From assembly GCF_005503365.1 (NCBI RefSeq), contig NZ_SCML01000021.1, forward strand, positions 1 to 64,000: a stretch of 64,000 bases of DNA. Direction: 5' to 3'. This document shows, in pieces, positions 25,806 to 33,150 of the stretch. The notes under the pieces are model-generated. The model did no database searches and was not told the origin of the DNA. It saw only the letters and a list, made by a program, of their open reading frames with translations. Numbering within the stretch: the first letter of the stretch is position 1; every line of letters starts with the position of its first letter. Made by a program: the position numbers and the translations under genes. The stretch is from Hydrogenophaga sp. 2FB (lineage in GTDB: Bacteria; Pseudomonadota; Gammaproteobacteria; Burkholderiales; Burkholderiaceae_C).

Positions 25806-27935
25806 ATGAACGCCGCTCCCACCACCCATCCCGCCGACGTACCCCTCGCCCGTGTTGAAGATGCGCGCCTGCTCACCGGTCGCGGCTGCTACGTGCACGA
25901 CGTGTCCTTGCCTGGCATGTTGCACGCGGTCTTCGTGCGCAGCGTGTACCCGCGTGCGCGCATCGTGTCGATGGACGCCAGCGGCGCGTCTTCCGTTGAG
26001 GGGTTCGTGGCCATCGTCACCGGTCACGACATCGACGGTCTGACCCTGCCGCCGCCCAACGACCTGCTCCAGAGCCTGCGCGCCGAACCCACGCCCCTGA
26101 TGCCCACGCAGGCGATCCGCAGCGTGGGCCAGCCGTTGGCGCTGGTGCTCGCCCGCAGCGCGGAGGCCGCGCGCCAGGCGGCCGATGCGGTGTGGTTCGA
26201 TTGCGAAGCCGAGCCTTCGCAGAACGACCTGGCCGACGGTGCGCCCGTGGTCGCCCGCGTGCGCCACCACACGGGCGATGCGCCCACGGTCGGCGCGACC
26301 GTGGTGCGCGCGGTGCAGCAGCAGCCGCGCGTCGCGGCCATGGCGCTGGAGCCGCGCGCGGCCGTGCTGCGTTGGGACGAGGCGACCGGCCAACTGGACG
26401 CCTGGCTGCCCACGCAGGCGCCGTCGCGCGCCCGCGCCAATATTGCGCAATTGTTGAACCTCCCGGCCGAGCGGGTGCGTGTGATCGCGCCCGACGTCGG
26501 TGGTGCCTTTGGCGCCAAATCGTCGCTCGGGCCGGAAGAACTGGTGCTGGCCTGGGCCGCGCGCACGTACCGCTGCGCGCTCAAGTGGACCGCCACGCGC
26601 AGCGAGGAATTCACCTCGGGCGTGCACGGCCGGGGCGCCCACCTTCAGGGCGAGCTGGCGCTGGATGCGCAGGGCCGCTTCATGCACCTCGGCGCGCGCT
26701 TGCGCTTCCCGGTGGGGGCCTGGTTGCCCTTCAGTGCCGTGGCGCCGGCGCGCAACACCGCGCGCATCCTGCCCGGCCCGTACCGGGTCGGTGGCGTGGA
26801 CATCGCCGCGCAGGTTGAAACCTCGGACGCGGCGGCGGTCACGATTTACCGCGGCGCGGGCCGGCCCGAGGCCACGCTGCTCATGGAGCGCCTGGTCGAG
26901 CGCGCCGCGCGCCACCTGGGCCTGGACCCGCTGGAGCTGCGCCGGCGCAACCTCATCGAGGCCGATCAGATGCCCTGGGCCACGCCCACCGGCGAGGTCC
27001 TGGACGCGGGCGACTACCGTGCCGTGCTGGAGCGCGCCGCCCAGGCGTTCGGCTACGAGGCCGAGCGTGCCGAACAGGTGCGCCGGCGCGCCGCGGGCGA
27101 ATGGGTGGGCCTGGGCACGGCCTTGTACATCGAGCCCTGCGGCCAGGGCTGGGAAAGCGCGCGCGTGAGCCTGCTGGCCGACGGCACGGTCGAAGTCGCC
27201 AGCGGTTCCAGCGCGCAAGGCCAGGGCCATGAGACCAGTTACGCGACCATCGCCGCCGCCGCACTGGGCTGTGAGCCGGCGCGCGTGCGCGTGCGCCATG
27301 GCGACACCGCGCACTGCCCCGAAGGCATCGGCGCGCTGGCCAGCCGCAGCATGGCCATCGGCGGCAGCGCGGTGCTCCTCGCCGCGCAGGAGGCGGCGCG
27401 CCGCCGCGACGCCGGGGAAGCCCTGCCGATCATGGCCGAACAGGTCTACACCGCCCCCGCCGAAGCCTGGAGCTACGGCTGCGTGATGGCGCGCATGGCC
27501 ATCGACGCCGACACCGGCAAGCCGCGCGTGGAGCGCATCGTCTGGGCCGATGACGCCGGCCAGATCGTCTCGCCCCAACTGGCCGAAGGCCAGTTGCTCG
27601 GCGGCCTGGCGCAAGGTCTGGGGCAGGCGCTGTTCGAGCGGCTGGTCTATGACGCGGACGGCCAGCTCGTCACCGGCTCGCTGATGGACTACGCAATGCC
27701 GCGCGCCGACGACATGCCACCGGTGGAGCTGCGCAGTCAGCACGTGCCCACGAACGCCAACGCGCTGGGCGCCAAGGGCGTGGGCGAGGCCGGCTGCATT
27801 GGCGTGCCGGCCGCGCTGCTCAACGCGGCGGCCGATGCGCTCTCGCCCCGGGGCGAACCCGAACTCGATTTCCCGCTCACGGCCGAACGCCTGTGGCGGG
27901 CCATGCCCACCCACCACTCTCCATTGAAACCATGA
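25806..27935 (+). CDS. Molybdenum hydroxylase, molybdopterin-binding large subunit
   Basis: 709-residue xanthine dehydrogenase/CoxL-family subunit, which carries the molybdopterin cytosine dinucleotide cofactor and hydroxylates a heterocycle or oxidises an aldehyde using water. Visible are VEDARLLTGRGCYVHDV at the N terminus, APDVGGAFGAKSSLGPEE, YRGAGRPEATLLMERL and the catalytic glutamate E661 in GAKGVGEAG. It is shorter than the usual 750-800 residues, mainly because a stretch near residues 535-555 is contracted. No good ribosome binding site precedes the ATG at 25806. It is the first gene of an eight-gene operon; the small iron-sulphur and FAD subunits follow after a DapA-like gene. Confidence 0.92.
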   Translation: MNAAPTTHPADVPLARVEDARLLTGRGCYVHDVSLPGMLHAVFVRSVYPRARIVSMDASGASSVEGFVAIVTGHDIDGLTLPPPNDLLQSLRAEPTPLMPTQAIRSVGQPLALVLARSAEAARQAADAVWFDCEAEPSQNDLADGAPVVARVRHHTGDAPTVGATVVRAVQQQPRVAAMALEPRAAVLRWDEATGQLDAWLPTQAPSRARANIAQLLNLPAERVRVIAPDVGGAFGAKSSLGPEELVLAWAARTYRCALKWTATRSEEFTSGVHGRGAHLQGELALDAQGRFMHLGARLRFPVGAWLPFSAVAPARNTARILPGPYRVGGVDIAAQVETSDAAAVTIYRGAGRPEATLLMERLVERAARHLGLDPLELRRRNLIEADQMPWATPTGEVLDAGDYRAVLERAAQAFGYEAERAEQVRRRAAGEWVGLGTALYIEPCGQGWESARVSLLADGTVEVASGSSAQGQGHETSYATIAAAALGCEPARVRVRHGDTAHCPEGIGALASRSMAIGGSAVLLAAQEAARRRDAGEALPIMAEQVYTAPAEAWSYGCVMARMAIDADTGKPRVERIVWADDAGQIVSPQLAEGQLLGGLAQGLGQALFERLVYDADGQLVTGSLMDYAMPRADDMPPVELRSQHVPTNANALGAKGVGEAGCIGVPAALLNAAADALSPRGEPELDFPLTAERLWRAMPTHHSPLKP

Positions 27936-28894
27936 CCACCAAATACCGCAAGCAAGACGCCAAAGCCTACGCCCGTGAACACTTCCGCGGCGTCTGGGCG
28001 GCCACCGCCACGCCCTTCAAGGAAGACCTGAGCCTGGACGAAGACGGTTTCCGCCGCAACCTGCGGCACTGGATTCGCGACCTGAAACTCGGTGGGCTGT
28101 TCGTCAGCGGCAAGCAGGGCGAGTTTTTCTCCATGTCGGTGGCCGAGCGCAAGCGCACCTTCGAACTGGCGGTCGAGGAGGCCAGCGGGCGCTGCGGCGT
28201 CGTGACCTCGTGCTCCGACACCAACCTCGACGTGGTGCTCGACCTGGCCCGCCATTCGCAGAACATCGGCGCCGACTACATCGTCGTGCACAGCCCGGTG
28301 CTGCACTTCCACCACAACCCCGACGAGACGGTCTACGAGTACTACCGCTACCTGAGCGAGCAGACCGAGATCGGCATCGCGCTGTGGAACCACCCCGACT
28401 GCGGCTACGAGATGAGCCCTGAGCTGTGCGCGCGCATCGCCGAGCTGCCCAACATCGTGGCCATCAAGTACAGCGTCGACCGCGAGAAGTACAGCCGCCT
28501 GACCCAGTTGGCGGGCGACAAGATCCTGGTGAGCACCGCGTCCGAAGAGGAGTGGCTGGACAACATCATCGAACTCGGCTGGCAGCTGTACCTGTGCTCC
28601 ACGCCACCGTTCCTGTTGCAGACCGCGGCCGACCAGCGCATCAACGAATACACGCGCCTGGCCTTCGAAGGCAAACACGCCGAAGCACGGGCCGTGCGCG
28701 ACAGCCTGGAGCCCGCGCGCCAGGCCTTCCGCTCGGCCCGTCCTTCGGGCACGCCGCAGGCCTACACCAAATACTGGCTGGAGCTGCTGGGCCAGGTCGG
28801 TGGCCCGGTGCGCCGCCCGCTGCTCAACCTGAGCGAGGCCGAGAAGGCCGCCACGCGCGACGCACTGGCGCGCAGCGGACTCCAGCTCAAGTGA
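27932..28894 (+). CDS. DapA-family aldolase/lyase
   Basis: 320-residue TIM-barrel protein of the dihydrodipicolinate synthase/N-acetylneuraminate lyase family. The Schiff-base lysine K179 is in NIVAIKYSVDR and the early GLFVSGKQGEFFSMS block replaces the usual GTTGE loop. The tyrosine of the usual PYY segment is absent: the region reads SPVLHFHH at 121-128. Its start overlaps the molybdenum subunit stop (ATGA). Members cleave or hydrate 2-oxo acids. Its place inside a hydroxylase operon suggests a ring-cleavage product as substrate, as with hydratase-aldolases of aromatic pathways. Confidence 0.88.
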   Translation: MTTKYRKQDAKAYAREHFRGVWAATATPFKEDLSLDEDGFRRNLRHWIRDLKLGGLFVSGKQGEFFSMSVAERKRTFELAVEEASGRCGVVTSCSDTNLDVVLDLARHSQNIGADYIVVHSPVLHFHHNPDETVYEYYRYLSEQTEIGIALWNHPDCGYEMSPELCARIAELPNIVAIKYSVDREKYSRLTQLAGDKILVSTASEEEWLDNIIELGWQLYLCSTPPFLLQTAADQRINEYTRLAFEGKHAEARAVRDSLEPARQAFRSARPSGTPQAYTKYWLELLGQVGGPVRRPLLNLSEAEKAATRDALARSGLQLK

Positions 28895-28904
28895 CATTGA
28901 CAAC

Positions 28905-32581: not shown

Positions 32582-32601
32582 ACCCCACCAGGAGCGACTC
32601 C

Positions 32602-33150
32602 ATGCGCCAACCCATCAACTTCGCCCGCTGGATCGACGAACACCAGCACCTGCTCAAGCCCCCCGTGGGCAACCAGCAGATATGGAAAGACTCGAACATG
32701 ATCGTGACGGTGGTGGGCGGCCCCAACCAGCGCACCGACTTCCACGACGACCCGTTCGAGGAGTACTTCCACCAGTTCAGGGGCAACGCCCACCTGCTGA
32801 TCGTGGACCGCGGCCAGTTCGAGCGTGTGGACCTGCGCGAAGGCGACATCTTCCTGCTGCCCGCGCACGTGCGCCACTCGCCGCAGCGGCCCGAGCCGGG
32901 CAGCCTGTGCACGGTGGTCGAGCTCCCGCGGCCGCAGGGCACGCGCGACGCGTTCGAGTGGTATTGCGCGGCCTGTGGCGGCCTGGTGCACCGCAGCGAA
33001 CTGCAGCTCTCCAGCATCGTGGACGACCTGCCACCGGTGTACAAGGCCTTCTACGACGCCACGCCCGCCGAACGTACCTGTCCCACCTGCGGCGAGGTCC
33101 ATCCAGGGCGTGACTGGGCGACCTGGCACGCACGGCGCGAGCGCGCCTGA
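32602..33150 (+). CDS. nbaC: 3-hydroxyanthranilate 3,4-dioxygenase
   Basis: 182-residue cupin extradiol dioxygenase that opens 3-hydroxyanthranilate to 2-amino-3-carboxymuconate semialdehyde. Iron ligands H48, E54 and H92 ([12 protein letters not shown] and RHSP) and the substrate residues R44, R96 and E107 are all present, each three positions before the known Cupriavidus metallidurans residues. The bacterial C-terminal rubredoxin-like site is intact: C122, C125, C160, C163. AGGAG precedes the ATG. It is the last gene of the molybdenum hydroxylase operon. A near relative acting on another amino-hydroxy-aromatic cannot be excluded. Confidence 0.93.

Follow-up and report, generated by a model that had tools for sequence, protein, structure and literature searches.

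How is the ring-opened product of 3-hydroxyanthranilate (3HAA) processed when the 3-hydroxyanthranilate 3,4-dioxygenase (HAO) is encoded in one operon with a molybdenum hydroxylase and an aldolase-like lyase? The question is raised by an operon in a 64,000-nucleotide stretch of the genome of Hydrogenophaga sp. 2FB (contig NZ_SCML01000021.1, positions 1–64,000; this whole stretch is hereafter called the window). Eight tightly packed genes on the forward strand extend exactly from the ATG of the gene for the molybdenum hydroxylase large subunit (MoL) at position 25806 to the stop codon of the HAO gene at position 33150, and encode, in order, MoL, a DapA-like lyase, 2Fe-2S (FeS) and FAD subunits, CoxG, an aspartate dehydrogenase (AspDH), a Bug protein, and HAO, as assigned with Pfam and NCBIfam. 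An earlier reading made from the letters alone (the sequence-only reading) had described this set as a single operon, had noted the conserved active-site residues of the HAO, and had remarked that typical 3HAA operons lack a molybdenum hydroxylase and an aldolase, all of which is borne out by the data below. The operon is real and is not a chance grouping, for its genes are found together again in many genomes. We propose, with a probability of roughly 60%, that it encodes a lower pathway for 3HAA that is independent of the decarboxylase ACMSD, that is, a lyase-based set in which the oxidase is either a molybdenum enzyme or an aldehyde dehydrogenase (ALDH).

The nba-type bacterial route from 3HAA uses ACMSD (the decarboxylase of 2-amino-3-carboxymuconate-6-semialdehyde, ACMS), AMSDH, a RidA-type 2-aminomuconate deaminase, FAA-family enzymes, and 4-hydroxy-2-oxovalerate aldolase. 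When a collection of species genomes was scanned with the window HAO as a single query, which recovers close relatives only, 70 loci were obtained, mostly from Burkholderiales and Alphaproteobacteria, and their gene content was called by profile search and tblastn on the stretch of sequence around HAO, some of the contigs being short. The lyase was present in 47 of these loci and ACMSD in 13; no locus had both, and 10 had neither on the stretch. The ACMSD loci carried RidA (13 of 13), FAA-hydrolases (12), and 4-hydroxy-2-oxovalerate aldolase (7), and all 13 lacked both MoL and the lyase. Among the lyase loci, neither FAA-hydrolases nor 4-hydroxy-2-oxovalerate aldolase were found (0/47 for each), and the RidA family occurred in four. 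The split was also seen in 41 whole genomes, comprising 38 from the 70 loci and three others (G000, G099, and G162), which were picked mainly for long contigs and whose local gene context was already known: the lyase was present in 32 and ACMSD in the other nine, with no genome containing both or neither. In these searches, in which all candidates were scored, presence meant at least 60% identity and 360 bits for the lyase (61–100% observed) and 58–100% identity with at least 430 bits for ACMSD, and the other matches listed were far weaker (≤96 bits for the lyase and, in lyase genomes, ≤146 bits for the ACMSD query). The window genome itself lacked ACMSD, its best match having 29% identity and 118 bits versus 430 bits or more in each of the nine ACMSD genomes. 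At three loci, only an incomplete set was located near HAO and the remainder lay elsewhere in the genome: MoL and the lyase were adjacent to each other and distant from HAO in G235 (L071); the lyase was beside HAO and MoL was on a different contig in G236 (L076, where the genes upstream of HAO are unrelated pilus/secretion genes); and in G237 (L089), ABC genes separated the lyase from an ALDH copy no more than about 9 kb away.

The same division was observed in samples drawn in other ways. In 200 genomes of the window's family, drawn irrespective of gene context, HAO was present at 62% identity or more in 17, a count that omits two matches at 27–29% identity (G022 and G196), and these 17 comprised 12 lyase and five ACMSD genomes, with candidates in the lyase and ACMSD searches scored in part in some genomes. 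All 12 lyase genomes had HAO, and the lyase was found in none of the remaining 183 (Fisher's exact test, 1e-15; the Fisher values for the family and locus counts ignore relatedness). One genome (G101) had ACMSD and no HAO match. The window cluster and the 11 fetched lyase clusters of the family all contained MoL and AspDH (12/12 each), and 10 of 12 contained the FeS and FAD genes. In plasmid records, the lyase was found in 47, ACMSD in 30, and HAO in 69. None of the 40 listed lyase records coincided with any of the 30 ACMSD records, and the 60 listed HAO records included 31 of those 40 and 22 of those 30. Of the listed HAO records, seven appeared in neither of the other two lists, and the three that were opened each contained the lyase, HAO, AspDH, and a gene annotated as succinate-semialdehyde dehydrogenase (SSADH). 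Seven plasmid stretches were examined; the lyase and AspDH occurred in all seven, and HAO and the SSADH gene in six each. The seventh with respect to SSADH, from Chelatococcus, had a molybdenum large subunit instead, and the stretch without HAO was from Phaeobacter, with HAO lying ~12 kb from the lyase in another Phaeobacter plasmid record of equal length. Some plasmid sets were compact, consisting of kynureninase, an SSADH-like ALDH, the lyase, and AspDH, either with HAO in line (Roseateles XES5) or without it on the stretch (Phaeobacter). At the gene level, HAO occurs in two settings, one with the lyase and the other with ACMSD.

The HAO itself (32602–33150, forward strand; Pfam 3-HAO) exceeded both NCBIfam equivalog cut-offs (254 versus 220 and 240 versus 146 bits) and matched PDB 1yfu, which we take to be the HAO of C. 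metallidurans, with 270 bits. The residues R44, H48, E54, H92, R96, E107, C122, and C125 (numbering of the window protein), presumably the known ligand and substrate residues, were all present. The iron and substrate residues were identical across 54 lyase-type proteins, which include those from loci so typed on MoL or FeS alone, and 14 ACMSD-type proteins, with that of L066 counted among the latter since its genome has ACMSD; no alignment column separated the two types at 85%. The lyase-type and ACMSD-type enzymes therefore likely share the same substrate, judging from these sequences. Kynureninase genes were located close to lyase clusters in Variovorax CAN15, four Ensifer/Sinorhizobium-like loci, Phaeobacter, and Roseateles XES5, which points to 3HAA itself as the substrate. 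The window genome contains a single HAO, and on another contig, kynureninase and tryptophan dioxygenase genes lie side by side with an adjoining arylformamidase gene. No kynureninase match was found in five lyase genomes (G203, G205, G206, G207, and G213), and the match in G225 was weak, several of these strains being represented by metagenome-assembled genomes; some strains may therefore import 3HAA or make it otherwise. The uptake genes also varied among the clusters (Bug, TRAP, and Liv-type ABC). A gene for an M20-type amidohydrolase (family F34, its annotation taken from L036) adjoins MoL-FeS-FAD-HAO at L033, L036, and L047, and the family was also noted for L089; many other clusters have alpha/beta hydrolases (BD-FAE) nearby. 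With such neighbors, the compound taken up may be a conjugate, either N-acylated or esterified.

A second exchange was found within the lyase-type set. Of the 32 lyase genomes, 18 had MoL (at least 48% identity and 600 bits) and 14 had an ALDH of an SSADH-like clade (at least 66% identity), with none having both or neither, candidates having been scored in part in some genomes. In one genome (G201) with neither gene near HAO, the ALDH (85%) was located at another place on the contig that carries the lyase, and the ALDH match in G219 was partial (71% over residues 155–476). MoL at this level was found in none of the nine ACMSD genomes, three of which had partly scored candidates. Correspondingly, the 47 lyase loci included 25 with MoL, 16 with the ALDH, none with both, and six with neither. 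On a quickly built lyase tree, a minimum of five changes between the molybdenum enzyme and ALDH was required, and the swap occurred even inside one genus, with ALDH at two Variovorax loci (L042 and L046) versus the molybdenum enzyme at a third (L059). The 16 ALDHs of lyase loci, together with that of L089, formed one clade apart from the AMSDHs of the ACMSD loci; against TIGR03216, the one AMSDH tested scored 851 bits and five lyase-type ALDHs scored 279–293 bits. The molybdenum enzyme and the ALDH are thus exchanged for each other at the gene level. Because 14 of the 32 genomes with HAO and the lyase have an SSADH-like ALDH and no MoL that was found, the molybdenum enzyme most likely oxidizes an aldehyde made after ring opening.

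A route can be written that uses all of these components. The Bug protein (31592–32581, forward strand; Pfam TctC, 272.6 bits; start at 31592 or 31598) would help to import 3HAA or a precursor, and HAO would open the ring to give ACMS. The molybdenum enzyme, composed of MoL, FeS, and FAD and acting with CoxG, would then oxidize the aldehyde of ACMS to 2-amino-3-carboxymuconate with no decarboxylation, a step that an SSADH-like NAD-dependent dehydrogenase would perform in other species. The lyase would form a Schiff base at C2 via K172, hydrate C4, and cleave the C3–C4 bond, yielding malonate semialdehyde (C3) and oxaloacetate or iminosuccinate (C4), and AspDH would reduce the iminosuccinate to aspartate, so that the nitrogen is retained. 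In ACMS, OHC-CH=CH-C(COOH)=C(NH2)-COOH, the carbons C1–C2–C3 and the carboxyl group on C3 constitute a substituted iminosuccinate, and the carbon count fits (7 = 4 + 3); on paper, HAO, the lyase, one oxidase, and AspDH are enough to convert C7 to C4 plus C3. The 3HAA route is thus probably non-decarboxylating, with its seven carbons being divided between C4 oxaloacetate or aspartate and a C3 semialdehyde. What follows ACMS is our inference, in the individual reactions, in the AspDH step, and in the placing of oxidation before cleavage; the lyase may act first. In that order of events, which we consider unlikely, the lyase would hydrate and cleave ACMS itself to oxaloacetate or iminosuccinate together with a C3 dialdehyde or semialdehyde, this C3 aldehyde then being oxidized by the molybdenum enzyme or SSADH-like ALDH. 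All of the exclusion data fit this order equally well, and the five ALDHs tested were closer to succinate-semialdehyde dehydrogenase (402–443 bits) than to 2-hydroxymuconic semialdehyde dehydrogenase (279–293 bits); however, it could involve malondialdehyde, which is toxic as a free intermediate. Furthermore, ACMS closes spontaneously to quinolinate (PMC7842363), which makes prior removal of the aldehyde attractive, and its oxidation in the order preferred here would prevent that closure.

The lyase (27932–28894, forward strand; Pfam DHDPS) is the hallmark of the alternative 3HAA route; it had been given no role in the sequence-only reading. It scored below every NCBIfam cut-off shown, including that for DapA (TIGR00674, 95 versus 206 bits). 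In an alignment with dihydrodipicolinate synthase (DHDPS), its K172 coincides with what we take to be the Schiff-base Lys and its W145 with what we take to be the catalytic Tyr, and both residues were invariant in 35 lyase sequences including that of the window. The DHDPS motif GTTGE is replaced by GKQGE, with K54-Q55 in place of Thr-Thr, and this change was fixed in the same 35 sequences; the Thr-Thr motif and the catalytic Tyr are presumably active-site features of DapA. The structure predicted with AlphaFold2 had a pLDDT of 92.7, and a fold search with this model gave 5zka with a Z score of 34.4 and an rmsd of 2.1 Å. By this model, the window protein is a class I lyase of the DapA superfamily, with a predicted Schiff-base Lys in a TIM barrel; the fold search identified the general superfamily only and does not pick a reaction. 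In G215 (L069), the lyase gene is split across two frames, reflecting either an error or decay. It is also conceivable, if quite improbable, that the lyase decarboxylates ACMS without being homologous to ACMSD, with the rest of the known route, from 2-aminomuconate to pyruvate, encoded elsewhere in the genome. Some DapA-superfamily enzymes do decarboxylate, such as 5-dehydro-4-deoxyglucarate dehydratase, a family that the lyase matches in NCBIfam, and the mutual exclusion with ACMSD is in line with this reading; yet in searches covering the loci, the FAA-hydrolases and hydroxyoxovalerate aldolase of the known route were absent from all 47 lyase loci, the ALDH belongs to a different clade from AMSDH, and AspDH would be left unexplained.

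The molybdenum enzyme in the window has the complete make-up of the xanthine oxidase family in Pfam terms, with a large subunit carrying the molybdenum cofactor, a 2Fe-2S subunit, and an FAD subunit. MoL (25806–27935; Ald_Xan_dh_C, MoCoBD_1, and MoCoBD_2), the proposed aldehyde-oxidizing catalytic subunit, is followed, after the lyase gene, by FeS (28905–29396; Fer2 and Fer2_2), FAD (29393–30196; FAD_binding_5 and CO_deh_flav_C), and a CoxG-like protein with a hydrophobic stretch at its C-terminus (30193–30765; COXG, 98.9 bits), all on the forward strand. MoL scored below every NCBIfam cut-off shown, with the best being the glyceraldehyde dehydrogenase alpha subunit (484.5 versus 790 bits). 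The sequence-only reading had suggested a route from an N-heterocycle or aromatic amine through an amino-phenol. A catabolic unit built around an amino-phenol ring-cleavage dioxygenase stands, but the molybdenum hydroxylase as the entry enzyme, hydroxylating such a compound upstream and feeding an amino-phenol to HAO, is now very doubtful. In its favor, the PDB sequences that MoL resembles include quinoline 2-oxidoreductase and 6-hydroxypseudooxynicotine dehydrogenase. However, this entry step is weakened by the exchange described above, in which the 14 genomes with the ALDH clade had no MoL of this kind that was found and the two never occurred together, and kynureninase is encoded in some ALDH-type clusters.

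AspDH (30762–31577, forward strand; Pfam NAD_binding_3 and Asp_DH_C; PDB 2dc1) exceeded three NCBIfam cut-offs, namely 261/177 (PRK13303.1-3), 246/226 (PRK13303.1-2, equivalog), and 193/184, and fell below others, such as that of NadX (TIGR03855, 175/207). It was present in 26 of the 47 lyase loci versus one of the 23 others (L023, where the contig starts at AspDH). In a tree of 69 rows, in which three genes from elsewhere were entered twice, the AspDHs of the clusters were mostly separate from those located elsewhere and fell into several clades. That the set instead serves NAD synthesis from 3HAA via quinolinate, with AspDH acting as NadX and the molybdenum enzyme unrelated, is hardly credible: both HAO and AspDH can feed quinolinate synthesis, but the uptake systems, the LysR genes, and the lyase and oxidase kept with HAO look catabolic, and AspDH is missing from many loci.

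Several points weigh against the proposed pathway. It is proposed from gene content, and the SSADH-like ALDH might act on a C3 product instead of ACMS. The lyase/ACMSD split, to which no exception was found, needs just two changes on the HAO tree and so reflects few independent events, and four loci (L033, L036, L044, and L047) have MoL-FeS-FAD-HAO without the lyase on the stretch around HAO that was searched. The best PDB sequence matches of MoL are CO dehydrogenase, 6-hydroxypseudooxynicotine dehydrogenase, and quinoline 2-oxidoreductase, so that an aldehyde substrate is not implied by its sequence alone. The absences in the MoL/ALDH exchange rest on partly scored candidates for MoL in six of the 14 ALDH genomes and for the ALDH in three of the 18 MoL genomes; an ALDH with 60% identity occurs in one of the ACMSD genomes (G228); and the MoL of L059 (G212), one of the swap examples, contains one in-frame stop codon (TGA), which may be an error or decay. 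The FeS and FAD genes were absent from the stretch for 12 of 29 relatives' MoLs (L024, L025, L034, L055, L061, L067, L072–L075, L079, and L083) and at two family loci (L096 and L097). Their presence switches at least four times on the MoL tree, and a whole-genome FeS search gave no clear dedicated partner for the MoLs that lack neighboring FeS/FAD genes, with best matches of 51–58% identity; in G214, G217, and G218, these matches adjoin another molybdenum paralog (39–40% identical). The lyase has Trp in place of the catalytic Tyr of DHDPS. Finally, a search of the 47 lyase loci, some of them on short contigs, gave no AspDH in 21, yet the enzyme occurs in seven of the nine ACMSD genomes, and it may therefore be optional in the route.

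The operon layout and its surroundings are as follows. Four-base overlaps occur at four junctions (MoL/DapA-like lyase, FeS/FAD, FAD/CoxG, and CoxG/AspDH). A terminator scan of the window found no forward-strand site, which carries little weight because only two sites were found overall versus 3.5 in shuffled sequences. A LysR-type gene on the reverse strand at 33264–34169 (Pfam LysR) is the probable regulator of the operon, and in G099 and G162, the corresponding cluster is likewise flanked by relatives of it (62–65%). An IclR-type gene (24879–25694, forward strand; Pfam IclR) lies directly upstream of the operon; no match to it was shown at an E-value of 1e-10 in 11 lyase-cluster stretches, and its link to the operon is uncertain. 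Downstream, at 34406–37978 on the forward strand and outside the conserved set, are genes for a SnoaL-like protein, a second Bug protein, an amidohydrolase, and a RidA-family protein, with the RidA-family gene ~4 kb from the operon scoring 45 bits against the 2-aminomuconate deaminase profile. Two RPE65/carotenoid-oxygenase proteins, presumably lignostilbene dioxygenase-like, are encoded on the reverse strand at 17469–18962 and 23352–24869, clustered with genes for a nitronate monooxygenase, an AMP-binding ligase, an alpha/beta hydrolase, and Bug proteins. At 39353–44760 on the forward strand, genes for an Amidohydro_2 protein, an intradiol-type ring-cleavage dioxygenase, a BKACE protein, and an alcohol dehydrogenase possibly form a further aromatic catabolic cluster. 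The open reading frames at 5150–10450 have low third-position GC (0.41–0.58 versus about 0.8–0.9 nearby) and are possibly foreign DNA.

Tryptophan catabolism has 3HAA and ACMS among its central intermediates, and the quinolinate formed from ACMS is both a neurotoxin and an NAD precursor. If the proposed pathway is correct, 12 of the 17 HAO genomes in the family sample, together with many alphaproteobacteria, use another 3HAA route; a function is assigned to a DapA-like family that is annotated merely as 'dihydrodipicolinate synthase family protein' in the opened plasmid records; and a molybdenum hydroxylase can stand in for an aldehyde dehydrogenase, and vice versa, within one pathway. The broadest form of the proposal is evenly balanced in our judgment: that this is a widespread and undescribed non-decarboxylating 3HAA pathway leading to aspartate or oxaloacetate and malonate semialdehyde via a new class I lyase family, in which an NAD-dependent dehydrogenase and a molybdenum enzyme have repeatedly replaced each other at the aldehyde-oxidizing step, the latter in some lineages being a molybdenum subunit without dedicated electron-transfer subunits. 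The sequence-only reading had called the system possibly undescribed, and searches of one open-access library revealed no account of HAO together with this lyase or with AspDH. As for described routes, 3HAA is degraded in Geobacillus by meta-cleavage (PMC4539516), and the catabolic route in fungi passes through ACMS decarboxylation by ACMSD to 2-aminomuconate (PMC7842363).

The operon can be compared with four known systems. With the ACMSD-type 3HAA meta-cleavage pathway, it shares the ring-cleavage enzyme, whose ligand and substrate residues are the same in both, and sometimes kynureninase and uptake genes; however, ACMSD was found in none of the 32 lyase genomes, which have instead the lyase, often AspDH, and the molybdenum enzyme or another ALDH, and AMSDH, 2-aminomuconate deaminase, FAA-hydrolases, and hydroxyoxovalerate aldolase are absent among the genes of the window operon. 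We take this ACMSD-type pathway to be the nba-type pathway in bacteria. The molybdenum hydroxylases of the CO dehydrogenase, glyceraldehyde oxidoreductase, and quinoline 2-oxidoreductase type resemble the window enzyme in their three subunits, molybdenum cofactor domains, and CoxG, whereas the operon MoL (about 709 amino acids) is below all of the NCBIfam cut-offs shown and is exchanged with an ALDH, and many of its relatives lack FeS/FAD on the stretch. The dihydrodipicolinate synthase superfamily (DapA, NanA, and KdgD), to which the hydratase-aldolases of naphthalene pathways also belong, shares its fold and Schiff-base Lys with the operon lyase but differs in the GTTGE motif, in the catalytic Tyr, and in scoring, with the lyase below every cut-off shown. 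The fourth system is the protocatechuate 4,5-cleavage pathway, in which the ring-cleavage semialdehyde is oxidized without decarboxylation and then hydrated and cleaved by an aldolase; that pathway uses other enzymes and involves no amine, whereas a class I lyase and AspDH would act here. We file the operon route as a variant of aromatic meta-cleavage that lies outside the ACMSD pathway.

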